A stretch of 36,901 nt of DNA from Leptolyngbya sp. (GTDB lineage Bacteria > Cyanobacteriota > Cyanobacteriia > Leptolyngbyales > Leptolyngbyaceae): contig QBMH01000023.1 of the NCBI GenBank assembly GCA_003249025.1, positions 1-36,901 on the forward strand. Reading direction: 5' to 3'. A program made the translations under genes and the position numbers. Under the pieces are notes generated by a model. That model saw only the letters and a program-made list of their open reading frames with translations. It had not been told where the DNA came from and made no database searches. The number at the start of each line of letters is the position of its first letter. Position 1 is the first letter of the stretch. Below are positions 7,583 through 12,904 of the stretch, in pieces.

Positions 7583-7679
7583 AATTATGCGGGTGTGGCT
7601 CAGTGGTAGAGCGCAACCTTGCCAAGGTTGATGTCACGAGTTCGAATCTCGTCACCCGCTTTTAACCGCATAATTTTTT
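7583..7679 (+). terminator. inverted repeat enclosing the tRNA, followed by T-run
   Basis: AATTATGCGG (7583-7592, including the first four tRNA bases) is perfectly complementary to CCGCATAATT (7666-7675), which runs into a T-tract ending at 7679. The leader AATTAT and trailer ATAATT could extend the acceptor stem in the precursor, and the T-run can serve as the termination point. Confidence 0.5.
7589..7660 (+). tRNA. tRNA-Gly (anticodon GCC)
   Basis: A 72-nt cloverleaf is readable. The acceptor stem GCGGGTG (7589-7595) pairs with CACCCGC (7653-7659), the D arm contains GGCTCAGTGGTAGAGC, the anticodon stem CAACC/GGTTG encloses TTGCCAA with anticodon GCC at 7621-7623, and the T arm contains GTTCGAATC. 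The discriminator is T7660. CCA is not encoded, so the 3' end must be added after processing. Confidence 0.97.
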
Positions 7680-7923: not shown

Positions 7924-8340
7924 GTGCTGCCTGTGCAACCGCAAAAATCCCAGAAGATTGATTTCAACCAAGAATATCCTTGTCCTTGTCGGCGTAAGGG
8001 GCAACTAAACCCGATCGCTCTGACAGAAGCCTTTGGGTGCAATCGCTGTCAGCAAATTTTTGTGGTGGATGAAAGTGGGCAATTGTTAGAACAATTAGCT
8101 AGCAGCTATCCCTACAAAAAAGCATGGCGATGGAATGGGCATCAATGGAATGTAGCCAACCCTAATTTTCGAGATAACTACTTGCCGATCGCCCTAGGCA
8201 TTGTCTTCATCATGCTGGTGATCTGGCTACCATTGGCACTGAATGCCAAGCCAACCTCACACAACGCTGTTCTGGTGATTGGTATTATGCTGCTGGCACT
8301 CCTTCCAGCCTTAATGGTCTTACTGGCATATAGACGGTAA
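7924..8340 (+). CDS. zinc-ribbon membrane protein, unknown function
   Basis: 138-aa protein with GTG start at 7924 (another GTG at 7933 is possible). The N-terminal half contains two cysteine pairs, CPC at C20/C22 and CNRC at C39/C42, forming a likely zinc ribbon. The C-terminal half has two membrane helices (about 88-106 and 114-135) and ends in YRR. It lies 4 bp upstream of the proA-like gene, so the two are almost certainly cotranscribed and translationally coupled. I do not recognise a characterised family. The 263 bp before it, after the tRNA, hold nothing convincing. Confidence 0.65.
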   Translation: MLPVQPQKSQKIDFNQEYPCPCRRKGQLNPIALTEAFGCNRCQQIFVVDESGQLLEQLASSYPYKKAWRWNGHQWNVANPNFRDNYLPIALGIVFIMLVIWLPLALNAKPTSHNAVLVIGIMLLALLPALMVLLAYRR

Positions 8341-8344
8341 CCCA

Positions 8345-9610
8345 ATGACGACGGATTTTCTTGGTCTCACTTCTGATCCGATCGCTGCCGTACAAGCTGC
8401 ACATCGGGCTTCTATCCATCTAGCCACCACCAGAGGGGTTCTGCGTAGTCAAGCGGTTTATGCCATGGCAGAAGCCCTAAAACAGGCGCAAAATGACATT
8501 CTTGAAGCCAACACTTTAGATCTAGAAGCAAGCCGAGAAATGGCAGTGCCTGATCTGATTTTAGAATGGCTAAAACTGACCCCTGAACGTCTGCAAACTG
8601 CGGTTCAACTGCTCAAGCGTCTGAGTGAGCTACCTGACCCCATCGGGCGCGTTATGGATGCGGCATACCAAATTGATCACTGCCAAATCTATTCGCAATT
8701 GATGCCTTTAGGCGTAATTGCCATGATTTACGAAGCGTTTCCAGAGTTGGCAGCAGTGGCGGCGGGTTTGTGCATCAAAACGGGCAATAGTTTGGTTTTG
8801 AAGGGCAGCGGAGAAGCGAGCCATTCTAATGCTGCGATCGCCCAAGCGCTATGGTCAGCAATTGAGAAAGTCGGCTTACCAGAGGGGTGCCTTCAAGCCA
8901 TAGCATCCGACCACAGCACCTCAGTAAGAGATCTGATTGTTCAGGATCAATATTTAAATCTGATTATTCCCTATGGTCGTCCTAGCTTGGTACAGCAGAT
9001 TGTGCGACAGGCAACGGCTCCCGTCTTGAAATCTGCTATGGGCAACTGTTATTTATATTGGTCGCCTTCTGGCGGGTTAGAAGCGGTTCGCTGGATGATT
9101 TTGGACAGTCACCAAAGCGAACCTGACCCCGTGAATGCGATCGAGAAAGTTCTGATTCACCCTAGCCAAAATCCCTCTTCGCTGCTGATGTTGTGGGATA
9201 GTCTGCGGGAGAAGGGTTTTGAGGTACGTGGAGATGCCGCCTTATCAGCCGAGTTTCCTGAGTTACGGCTGGCAGAAGAAGGAGAATGGCGGCAAGCCTA
9301 TTTGGCGAAGGTGATTGCTTTTAAGCTCGTTGCCAGTTTGGATGAGGCGATCGCTTGGATCAACTTAAACAGCAGTGGACATGCCGATTGTTTAGTCACC
9401 GAATCCTATCCAGAAAGTCGCCAATTTGCTCTAGGCATTAACAGCGCCTCTACCTACATCAATGCGTCACCCCGGTTTTCTCGCAATCCTAAACGCGGAG
9501 ACTCTATTTTTCTGGGCATGTCTAACCAAAAAGGACACCGCCGCGGTCCTATTAGCCTAGAGACACTCACGACGGTGAAGCACATTATTCAAGGGATCGG
9601 ACAATTCTGA
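8345..9610 (+). CDS. ProA-like glutamate-5-semialdehyde dehydrogenase paralog lacking the catalytic Cys
   Basis: 421-aa aldehyde-dehydrogenase-fold protein aligning end to end with gamma-glutamyl phosphate reductase (ProA), which makes glutamate semialdehyde for proline. Recognisable blocks are PLGVIAMIYEAFPE (121-134), LCIKTGNSLVLKGSGEA, LNLIIPYGRPSLV, the TAPVLKSAMGNC loop and the C-terminal INASPRF and RRGPISLETLTT. In true ProA the nucleophilic Cys sits in a VCNALE-type motif; here it reads PVNAIEKVLIH with Val263 at that position. Activity as a reductase is therefore doubtful. It may be a diverged second copy, since cyanobacteria can carry more than one ProA-like gene. It is coupled to the upstream zinc-ribbon membrane protein, which hints at a non-metabolic or scaffolding role. 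No proB is nearby. Confidence 0.8.
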   Translation: MTTDFLGLTSDPIAAVQAAHRASIHLATTRGVLRSQAVYAMAEALKQAQNDILEANTLDLEASREMAVPDLILEWLKLTPERLQTAVQLLKRLSELPDPIGRVMDAAYQIDHCQIYSQLMPLGVIAMIYEAFPELAAVAAGLCIKTGNSLVLKGSGEASHSNAAIAQALWSAIEKVGLPEGCLQAIASDHSTSVRDLIVQDQYLNLIIPYGRPSLVQQIVRQATAPVLKSAMGNCYLYWSPSGGLEAVRWMILDSHQSEPDPVNAIEKVLIHPSQNPSSLLMLWDSLREKGFEVRGDAALSAEFPELRLAEEGEWRQAYLAKVIAFKLVASLDEAIAWINLNSSGHADCLVTESYPESRQFALGINSASTYINASPRFSRNPKRGDSIFLGMSNQKGHRRGPISLETLTTVKHIIQGIGQF

Positions 9611-9852: not shown

Positions 9853-10671
9853 TTAATCTTTGCCTACCAACTTAACCTTACTTGCCAAGCCTATCGCCTG
9901 TAAGAATTGAATGGTCATCCAAGTCATATCAATTTCCCACCACTGCAACCCATGACGAGCCGAATGTTGATAGGCATGATGGTTGTTGTGCCAGCCTTCA
10001 CCATAAGTTAGTAGGGCGACCCACCAGCAATTGCGGGAGTTGTCATTAGATTCATGACTTTGATAGCCAAACATATGAGTGGCGCTGTTCACTAGCCAAG
10101 TGCAATGAAACACCGCGATTAGACGGACAAAAACGCCCCATACCACGAATGGCCACCCCCCGATTGCATAAAGCACCACTGCCAACGCAATCTGAAGCGG
10201 AATAAAGTACTTATTAAAAAACTGATAGACCGGATCATCATTGATATCTTTCGTGAACCGAGGCACTTGATCACGCATCGGAATATCAAATAGCATCCAG
10301 CCCATATGGCTCCACCAAAAGCCGCGCTTCGAGTCATGTGGATCTTGGTCTTGATCGGAATGGAGATGGTGAAAACGATGCATTCCGACCCATTCAGTCA
10401 CACCCCCCTGGCAGGATAAAGTGCCACATAAAACTAGGAAATATTCAATCAATTTAGGCGTTTGGAAGCTGCGGTGGGTGACGAGGCGATGAAAGCCCAG
10501 GGTAATTCCTAAGCCACCAGTAACCCAATGTAGGAGGATCGCGACTCCTACGGCTGCCCAGCTAAAGTTACTCGGTAATAAGGCAAAAAGCGCACCACCA
10601 TGCACAATCACCATAAATAAAACTACCGGCAAATCTAATTTGAGTGGTTTGTTTGAAGTTGCAACAGTCAT
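9853..10671 (-). CDS. desC: acyl-lipid delta-9 desaturase (DesC type)
   Basis: Membrane di-iron desaturase of 272 aa that introduces the first double bond into acyl chains of membrane glycerolipids, with ferredoxin as electron donor in cyanobacteria. The three histidine boxes are intact: HRLVTH (61-66), HRFHH (98-102) and HNNHH (228-232). The surrounding segments EWVGMHRFHHLHSD, DPHDSKRGFWWSHMGWML and TYGEGWHNNHHAY are diagnostic of the delta-9 acyl-CoA/acyl-lipid group. Hydrophobic helices lie at about 13-32, 37-57, 155-172 and 176-195. Specificity for position 9 is assigned by family resemblance. Cold regulation is common for such genes, but no element is recognisable here. Confidence 0.9.
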   Translation of the reverse strand: MTVATSNKPLKLDLPVVLFMVIVHGGALFALLPSNFSWAAVGVAILLHWVTGGLGITLGFHRLVTHRSFQTPKLIEYFLVLCGTLSCQGGVTEWVGMHRFHHLHSDQDQDPHDSKRGFWWSHMGWMLFDIPMRDQVPRFTKDINDDPVYQFFNKYFIPLQIALAVVLYAIGGWPFVVWGVFVRLIAVFHCTWLVNSATHMFGYQSHESNDNSRNCWWVALLTYGEGWHNNHHAYQHSARHGLQWWEIDMTWMTIQFLQAIGLASKVKLVGKD

Positions 10672-10810
10672 GCATTCGTCCCAAATGAGAAGTACAATGC
10701 CAAATTGGCGCGAAACTAGACGCTCGTTCTAGAGATCTCATCGCGGAGATGGGTAGATTAGCTACCGCAAGACAAGGCGTTGAGAATTATGTTGGAGAAG
10801 CAAGCGGAAA

Positions 10811-12040
10811 ATGAACAGCCCCATTCTTTTAAAGGAAGCGGAACAAGCACTATCCCTGATTTTTTCTGGTATTGACATACAGGTCAAGAAAAATCTAAAA
10901 CGCTTGCTGGAAGCCTTTCGCCAACACCGAGTTGGCACCCACCATTTTTCTGGGGTGACAGGATATGGGCATAGCGATTTAGGCAGGGAAGTATTGGATC
11001 GAGTGTTTGCTCAAGTTATGGGGGCAGAGGCGGCTGCGGTACGGGTTCAATTTGTGTCTGGGACGCACGCGATCGCCTGTGCGCTGTATGGCGTTCTTCG
11101 TCCAGGAGACGAAATGCTTGCCGTGGCGGGTGCCCCTTATGACACGTTGGAGGAAGTGATTGGTCTACGGGGGCATCAGCAGGGTTCCTTAGCAGAGTTT
11201 GGGATTCACTATCGCCAGTTATATCTCACAGCAACAGGCGAGATTGACTGGAAAGCACTAGCTCATGCTATCAAATCAGAGACGCGCCTGGTATTGATTC
11301 AGCGATCATGTGGATATTCTTGGCGATCGAGTTTGGCGATCGCGGATATTGAAAAAATCGTTCAAATCGTTAAGCAGCAGAACCCAAACACGGTTTGCTT
11401 TGTAGATAACTGCTATGGCGAGTTTATTGAATCGTGCGAACCTACGAGCGTGGGTGCAGATTTGATGGCAGGGTCACTTATTAAAAATCCGGGTGGCACG
11501 ATTGTCACCGCAGGCGGCTATGTTGCGGGACGAGCAGATCTAGTAGAAATGGCAACCTGTCGGCTGACGGCTCCGGGGATTGGCAGTTCGGGCGGTGCCA
11601 CCTTTGACCAAAATCGACTGTTGTTTCAAGGGCTGTTTCTCGCCCCGCAAATGGTGGGAGAAGCGATGAAGGGCAATCATTTAACCGCTTATGTGTTTGA
11701 CCAGTTGGGGTATCCAGTCAACCCGTTGCCCATGGCTCCTCGCCGGGATGTGATCCAAGCCGTCCAATTGGGTTCAAAAGATAAACTAATTGCTTTTTGC
11801 CGTGCGGTTCAGCAACAGTCGCCGATTGGCTCCTATCTCGACCCGGTGCCAGCCCCAATGCCGGGTTACGCAAGCGAATTAGTTATGGCAGGCGGCACGT
11901 TTATTGATGGCAGCACCTCTGAGCTTTCAGCAGATGGACCCTTGCGAGAACCCTACACGGTTTTTTGCCAAGGAGGAACCCACTGGACTCATGTTTCAAT
12001 CGCCTTGGAAGCTGCCATTGACGCGATCGCTGATATCTAA
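10811..12040 (+). CDS. PLP-dependent methionine gamma-lyase / aluminium-resistance family protein
   Basis: 409-aa cytosolic fold-type I PLP enzyme. The family is annotated as aluminium-resistance protein or methionine gamma-lyase-related. The N-terminal HHFSGVTGYGHSDLGRE and QFVSGTHAIACALYG segments form the cofactor pocket, VDNCYGEF supplies the Asp that contacts the pyridine nitrogen, and GSLIKNPGGTIV holds the Schiff-base lysine K225. The C-terminal GGTHWTHVSIALE is also conserved. The substrate is probably a sulfur amino acid, but that is inferred from the family name only. The gene is transcribed away from desC (139-bp gap) and ends 6 bp from the convergent low-complexity protein gene. 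Confidence 0.88.
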   Translation: MNSPILLKEAEQALSLIFSGIDIQVKKNLKRLLEAFRQHRVGTHHFSGVTGYGHSDLGREVLDRVFAQVMGAEAAAVRVQFVSGTHAIACALYGVLRPGDEMLAVAGAPYDTLEEVIGLRGHQQGSLAEFGIHYRQLYLTATGEIDWKALAHAIKSETRLVLIQRSCGYSWRSSLAIADIEKIVQIVKQQNPNTVCFVDNCYGEFIESCEPTSVGADLMAGSLIKNPGGTIVTAGGYVAGRADLVEMATCRLTAPGIGSSGGATFDQNRLLFQGLFLAPQMVGEAMKGNHLTAYVFDQLGYPVNPLPMAPRRDVIQAVQLGSKDKLIAFCRAVQQQSPIGSYLDPVPAPMPGYASELVMAGGTFIDGSTSELSADGPLREPYTVFCQGGTHWTHVSIALEAAIDAIADI

Positions 12041-12046
12041 CTAGCT

Positions 12047-12904
12047 TTAGCTTTCAGACTTCGCAGATTCAGGTGCCTTTATCTTCTTGATAGGGGCAGC
12101 AGGACCTTTCACTACAGGAGCGCCTCCCAGTTCTGGAACCTGCGCAACGGGTTCCGATACGGCTTCAGCAATCGTTTCAAGCGGAGCTTCTTCAGTCGGC
12201 GCGATCGCTGCATCAGCCGTAGGCTCAGCCGGAATGGAAGTAGCTTCTGCCACAGGAGCCATATCTTCTGAAACGGATTCAACAGGTTCAGATACGACTT
12301 CAGCCGGTTCTTCAGATGCAATTGCAGGCTCAGCAACTTCTACTTCAGCAGCAGCTTTTGCCGCTTCTGCCTCAGCTTCAGCAGTTTCTAAGGCTTCTGC
12401 CTCAGCTTTTGCAGCCGCTTCCTCAGCCGCCGCTTTTGCTTCCGCTTCAGCGGCTTCCGCTTCAGCCTTTGCAGCCGCTTCTGCCTCAGCTTTGGCGGCA
12501 GCTTCTACAGCAGCGGCTTCTTCAGCTTCAATCTCAGCTTTAGATTTGACTCTGGGTGGTTTGGGTCCTCTCATCAAAGCCACACTGGCAGGAGGTTTGA
12601 ACTCCTCCTTGCGATCGCCCCCTCTGCCACCCTTGCCTTTGCGATCGCGGTCTCTGTCGCGACTCGAACGGTCTTCACCCGAACGATCTTTGTCCCGACT
12701 TGGGCGATCGACGCTTGGACGGTCTACAGTTGGACTGTCCTCACTCGGACGATCTCCAGCCGGACGATCTCCAGCCGGACGATCTTGACTCCGAACTGGA
12801 CGTGGACGATCTTCCCGCTGTCCAGACGGCTGGACCGGTAAATTCTCTCCTTCTGAGGCAACCTTTTCTACGCGCTCAGATTTCTTGATTGGACGTTCTA
12901 CCAT
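12047..12904 (-). CDS. low-complexity charged/Ala-rich protein, conserved cyanobacterial type
   Basis: 285-aa hydrophilic protein without signal or membrane segment. Residues 1-20 start MVERPIKKSERVEKVASEG. Residues about 30-100 are an Arg/Asp/Pro/Ser region with tandem DRPAGDRP and DRPSxDRP units, then RDRDRDRKGKGGRGGDR. A short conserved-looking core, PPASVALMRGPKPPRVKSK, sits near 103-121. Residues about 122-195 are an AEAEAAAK-type Ala/Glu/Lys helix, and the rest is acidic and Pro/Glu rich. The MRGPKP motif recalls small unannotated cyanobacterial proteins (from memory). The DNA carries a matching 15-bp tandem repeat at about 12758-12790. The RG/RD part suggests nucleic-acid contact, unproven. 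A large antisense reading frame here is a composition artefact. Confidence 0.7.
   Translation of the reverse strand: MVERPIKKSERVEKVASEGENLPVQPSGQREDRPRPVRSQDRPAGDRPAGDRPSEDSPTVDRPSVDRPSRDKDRSGEDRSSRDRDRDRKGKGGRGGDRKEEFKPPASVALMRGPKPPRVKSKAEIEAEEAAAVEAAAKAEAEAAAKAEAEAAEAEAKAAAEEAAAKAEAEALETAEAEAEAAKAAAEVEVAEPAIASEEPAEVVSEPVESVSEDMAPVAEATSIPAEPTADAAIAPTEEAPLETIAEAVSEPVAQVPELGGAPVVKGPAAPIKKIKAPESAKSES

Follow-up and report, generated by a model that had tools for sequence, protein, structure and literature searches.

A ProA homolog without the catalytic cysteine, encoded beside a putative zinc-ribbon membrane protein, is conserved in cyanobacteria and probably descends from a displaced ancestral ProA

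The open reading frame at positions 8,345–9,610 (plus strand, 421 aa) of the window, a 36,901-nt stretch of Leptolyngbya sp. DNA, encodes a ProA-fold protein without the catalytic Cys, a candidate pseudoenzyme that is conserved across nearly all Cyanobacteriia and groups with the only ProA of Gloeobacter. The protein matched the solved ProA 1o20 over residues 27–417 (E 7.5e-71) and scored 332.9 bits against NF001221, over the cut-off of 289, bearing out the full-length ProA homology claimed in a preliminary description of this DNA; automatic annotation would therefore name it ProA. Against TIGR00407 it reached 290.8 bits, under the curated equivalog cut-off of 317.45. No description of a Cys-less cyanobacterial ProA was found in the open-access literature.

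The catalytic Cys of the ProA motif (V/A)CNA(A/I)E is absent from the window protein. Codon 263 (GTG, positions 9,131–9,133, plus strand; motif PDPVNAIEKVLI) places Val in the nucleophile column of a gap-free alignment, as the preliminary description had read it. Cys occupies this column in 12/12 canonical ProAs of the phylum and in all 24 catalytic-type ProAs of a wider set drawn from cyanobacteria, other bacteria and one archaeon, against none of 99 orthologs from Cyanobacteriia, which carry Val (95), Ile (2), Gly (1) or Ala (1). A check for another Cys at the nucleophile position found none: the second one, Cys235, lies outside the nucleophile column and is kept in the Cys-less clade and in active ProAs alike, so that the alignment holds no displaced nucleophile. 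A function for Cys235 close to the pocket is conceivable. The AF2 model built for the window protein was weak (pLDDT 66.9, with the final 55 residues below 50), since only close relatives were usable as input; with this low-confidence model, the top Foldseek matches were solved ProA structures.

Comparison with known ProAs (NF001221 and TIGR00407; PDB 1o20, 4ghk and 8zok) gave about 30–37% identity along the full length, but 17 conserved positions, the nucleophilic Cys among them, are missing. Of 57 positions conserved at ≥92% in the 24 catalytic-type ProAs, the Cys-less clade has kept 27 and lost 17, with 13 mixed. Losses include Arg75, Arg132, Arg210, His236, Lys256, Cys263 and Glu318, and also Thr376, Asp380, Glu389, Thr394 and Pro402. 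The charged motif residues Arg132, Arg210, His236, Lys256, Asp380 and Glu389 are all replaced in the window protein, and we infer from motif position that these would line the active site. As judged from sequence, it is very likely that the Cys-less protein has lost ordinary ProA chemistry.

Loss of the catalytic site might in itself be taken as the mark of a decaying, functionless relic. This is refuted by the selection test, in which the median dN/dS among 61 close pairs of the Cys-less gene was 0.046, indicating purifying selection, and by full-length reading frames in nearly all Cyanobacteriia and about 70% protein identity between families; the earlier statement that the replacement is "not random decay" thus holds for the whole clade.

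New residues are fixed across the Cys-less clade (Trp75, Leu135, Tyr210, Arg212, Tyr236, Ser354 and Arg380), while Asn148, Glu130, Asn373 and Cys235 are retained. Both observations favour a new enzyme, in which a remodelled pocket would use Tyr210, Arg212, Tyr236, His256, Lys268 and Arg380 as its active site: several of the conserved pocket-region replacements reach 95–100% in the 99 orthologs, which a plain scaffold would not need. However, such an enzyme has neither a candidate nucleophile nor a pathway context, the gene neighbours being variable except for ribH, and catalysis in the ALDH fold normally requires Cys. We regard a new enzyme as unlikely, though it is the main rival to a regulator or scaffold.

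Distribution was determined in a sample of 292 genomes of the phylum, with 99 loci read. Close orthologs were present in nearly every sampled Cyanobacteriia family, the exceptions being f19, whose small genomes were taken as picocyanobacteria, and f17; phylum genomes outside the class Cyanobacteriia gave matches in the ordinary range only. A separate contig (C345) of the source genome carries an ordinary ProA with a CNAIE motif and 540 bits on TIGR00407. Searches of phages and plasmids returned only ProAs below 40% identity, and those fetched had Cys in the aligned column in 12/12 cases, the strict pattern finding the Cys motif in 6/12.

Two single-contig genomes, G051 and G284, carry the Cys-less gene, ProB and ProC without a canonical ProA, as would be expected if the window protein were a second working ProA making glutamate-5-semialdehyde via an altered mechanism; annotation and the Synechocystis literature also treat the gene as proA (PMC12386471). 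However, genes that neighbour ProA in sister genomes are missing as well, MetH from G051 and AroC from G284, so these assemblies probably lack a segment, and the two genomes were rejected as a natural ProA substitution. Cys, His236, Lys256, Arg132, Arg210 and Glu389 are gone from the Cys-less protein, and the active site is kept where the lineage is the sole ProA (Gloeobacter, one genome read). Taken with the probable gaps in the assemblies, this makes a second working ProA highly improbable.

The gene directly upstream (7,924–8,340, plus strand, GTG start) encodes a 138-aa putative zinc-ribbon protein with two predicted membrane helices, and a gap of 4 bp (8,341–8,344, plus strand) separates its stop codon from the ATG of the ProA-like gene, in agreement with the preliminary description. 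Its Cys pairs, C20-P-C22 and C39-x-x-C42, were invariant in both alignments made, and a YPYK..WRW..W stretch is conserved. The membrane hairpin is predicted at about residues 86–106 and 113–137, with mean hydropathy up to 2.6 and 3.0, respectively. No relative of the protein was found in Pfam or PDB, and its low-confidence model (pLDDT 67) had no match in a structural search. Stop-to-ATG spacing was exactly 4 bp in 100 of 155 loci and ≤30 bp in 146 of them, and the 4-bp gap suggests translational coupling.

The preliminary description had suggested checking whether a Cys-less clade exists and always accompanies the zinc-ribbon gene. The clade does exist, but the pairing is not constant: the zinc-ribbon gene lies directly upstream on the same strand in 93/99 Cys-less loci and is gone from the other six (L071–L073, L081, L087 and L090), where the ProA-like gene is intact. 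The zinc-ribbon profile had no match for five of those six genomes, and the sixth was not among the matches listed. In G147 and G183 stop codons interrupt the zinc-ribbon gene and the ProA-like frame is open. Loss or decay of the zinc-ribbon gene in these genomes implies that the ProA-like protein can act without its partner. The broader suggestion of a conserved inactive ProA tied to a membrane partner is thus supported in its conservation and its usual pairing, while catalytic death, judged from the replaced residues, is probable.

The coupling of the pair could also be read the other way round, with the zinc-ribbon protein as the component that matters and the ProA-like protein merely its stabiliser or chaperone, and in f17 the zinc-ribbon gene does persist without the ProA-like gene (G085 and G241). 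This is hard to reconcile with the survival of the ProA-like gene in the six genomes that have no adjacent zinc-ribbon gene and in the two where that gene carries stop codons, and we consider a stabiliser role improbable. Most Cyanobacteriia also have, at another locus, a further zinc-ribbon membrane paralog that scores lower (about 40–60 bits to the family profile); the two paralog loci inspected, G000:C99:16373-16609 (L209:4272-4835) and G039:C204 (L210:3482-3979), have no ProA neighbour.

Three families (f47, f55 and f54) of the class-wide sample have a single ProA-like match, at 1e-84 to 1e-95 to the window protein; canonical cyanobacterial ProA matches it at only 1e-50 to 1e-65. In G299, a genome from these families that we take to be Gloeobacter violaceus PCC 7421, the only ProA-like match of the genome (L237:7100-8389, minus strand) immediately follows a gene of the same zinc-ribbon family (8393–8821) whose product scores 122 bits to the zinc-ribbon protein of the window and has the Cys pairs CPRC...CDRC, so that the gene pair and its order are as in the window. 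Unlike the window protein, this ProA keeps Cys (motif RPSVCNAAEKLLV), reaches 458 bits on TIGR00407 and has all other residues lost in the Cys-less clade, barring positions 205 and 338. Thr57, Lys268 and Trp338 are common to the Gloeobacter ProA and the Cys-less clade. The Gloeobacter pair (L237:3500-13500) is situated between a divergent rpsL-rpsG-fusA-tuf cluster and S10/spc-type ribosomal genes.

In the tree, the Cys-less clade has a single origin (support 100/99) and a long stem branch (1.79), with the Gloeobacter ProA as its sister (94/96), and canonical cyanobacterial ProA groups with haloarchaeal and clostridial ProA, set apart by a branch supported at 100/100. Constraining the Gloeobacter ProA with canonical cyanobacterial ProA was rejected (p 4e-104), as was constraining the Cys-less clade with canonical ProA (p 0.020; p 0.041 without Gloeobacter). 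Long branches leave the exact tree position less sure, and the Gloeobacter placement depends on a single fully read representative; the adjacency of the genes supports it independently. Since the tree groups the window protein with the only ProA of Gloeobacter, it looks like a displaced original enzyme and not like a recent duplicate, and the term "paralog" used earlier calls for adjustment. As far as alignment and tree can tell, the Cys-less protein is descended from an active-type ProA. A history in which the zinc ribbon and an active ProA formed an ancestral pair, a second ProA came later and the first then lost catalysis seems to us likely.

The proposed explanation runs as follows. After the Gloeobacterales split, a second ProA would have been gained and would have taken over gamma-glutamyl phosphate reduction in the ancestor of non-Gloeobacter cyanobacteria, the gain preceding the loss of Cys in the order that we infer. 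The old ProA would have been retained through a non-catalytic job, either already present or newly gained, as a ProA-fold pseudoenzyme usually tethered to the membrane via its zinc-ribbon partner. It might bind a long-standing partner, for example ProB, or accommodate a ligand of the glutamate family in the remodelled pocket, and this binding would tune the flow of glutamate into proline and carbon/nitrogen partitioning. ProB is a natural candidate because a complex of the bacterial glutamate kinase with ProA has been proposed, according to PMC8963878, which cites earlier kinetics. That the window protein is a displaced ancestral ProA kept for a non-catalytic job in glutamate-family (carbon/nitrogen) metabolism is, in our estimate, evenly poised; its being specifically a regulator or scaffold of that metabolism is plausible, though we hold it with some reserve. 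More tentatively, the ancestral ProA may already have been both an enzyme and a membrane-coupled carbon/nitrogen regulator, with the old protein keeping regulation alone outside the Gloeobacter group.

Evidence bearing on function comes from Synechocystis. In two genomes of this genus (G076 and G093), the canonical ProA gene adjoins UrtE, and rpsD and cph1 flank the Cys-less gene; the Cph1 of G076 matches the PDB 2VEA sequence almost completely. Two genes of PCC 6803, sll0373 and sll0461, are named proA (PMC12386471). The urea-transporter ATPase UrtE is sll0374 (PMC3516471, PMC5053081), and the phytochrome is slr0473 in PMC5053081, cph1 being given as slr0474 in PMC3516471. With UrtE (sll0374) and cph1 (slr0473) as neighbours, synteny in the genus genomes points to sll0373 as the enzyme and to sll0461 as the Cys-less protein.

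When sll0461 is disrupted by a transposon, PHB reportedly rises in standard medium (Tyo et al. 2009, cited by PMC3859321 and PMC3766872). A viable mutant with a carbon-storage phenotype fits a non-catalytic role in carbon/nitrogen balance, and the regulatory role that we propose is helped by the phenotype; the PHB evidence is one transposon study, taken from the papers that cite it, in which polar effects are possible. The Synechocystis genomes matching the mutant have no zinc-ribbon gene, so membrane tethering would be unnecessary there. If sll0461 is, as is very probable, not a proline enzyme, its PHB phenotype and transcript changes have been read under the wrong function. Within the Synechocystis genus, the zinc-ribbon gene is lost at L087 and L090, where the Cys-less gene is beside cph1, and is retained in G014 and G080. 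Control by NtcA was considered and rejected, the GTA-N8-TAC pattern occurring upstream in 16/165 loci against 20 expected, without enrichment.

ALDH16A1 and squid omega-crystallin are pseudoenzymes of the aldehyde dehydrogenase superfamily. The window protein resembles them in that the ALDH fold is kept, catalysis is lost (here as predicted from the replaced residues) and the protein is conserved, presumably here too for another role. They differ from it in belonging to another ALDH family, in having no known zinc-ribbon membrane partner and, if the history above is right, in not representing a housekeeping enzyme displaced across an entire phylum. The GPR domain of P5CS, which works in assemblies with glutamate kinase, is homologous to the window protein but has the catalytic Cys, C598 in Drosophila being the proposed nucleophile (PMC8963878, PMC11208152).

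The Gloeobacter ProA and the Cys-less clade would form a natural before/after pair for the conversion of a housekeeping enzyme into a pseudoenzyme, active-type in Gloeobacter and predicted to be inactive elsewhere. If the regulatory reading is true, the Cys-less protein is a conserved new player in cyanobacterial carbon/nitrogen control, and the undescribed zinc-ribbon membrane family acquires a role. If the ancestor did have a dual role, model strains hold an unrecognised regulator annotated proA, and Gloeobacter is a living before-state.

The surroundings of the pair were also compared. A tRNA-Gly(GCC) gene (7,589–7,660, plus strand) lies upstream and is flanking context only. Of about 180 loci, 81, spread over many families, have a lumazine synthase-like gene (ribH) ahead of the pair in the same orientation, about 1.6 kb from the ProA-like gene and mostly 250–1400 bp from the zinc-ribbon frame; the window has none. 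An operon of ribH with the pair was set aside, no functional coupling being assumed at that distance. After the pair, the window carries a fatty-acid desaturase-like gene (opposite strand) and a PLP-enzyme-like gene (9,853–12,040), and similar genes come after the pair in about 64 and 61 compared loci, respectively. These are succeeded on the minus strand by a gene for a low-complexity protein (12,047–12,904), first Asp/Arg/Pro-rich and then Ala/Glu-rich.
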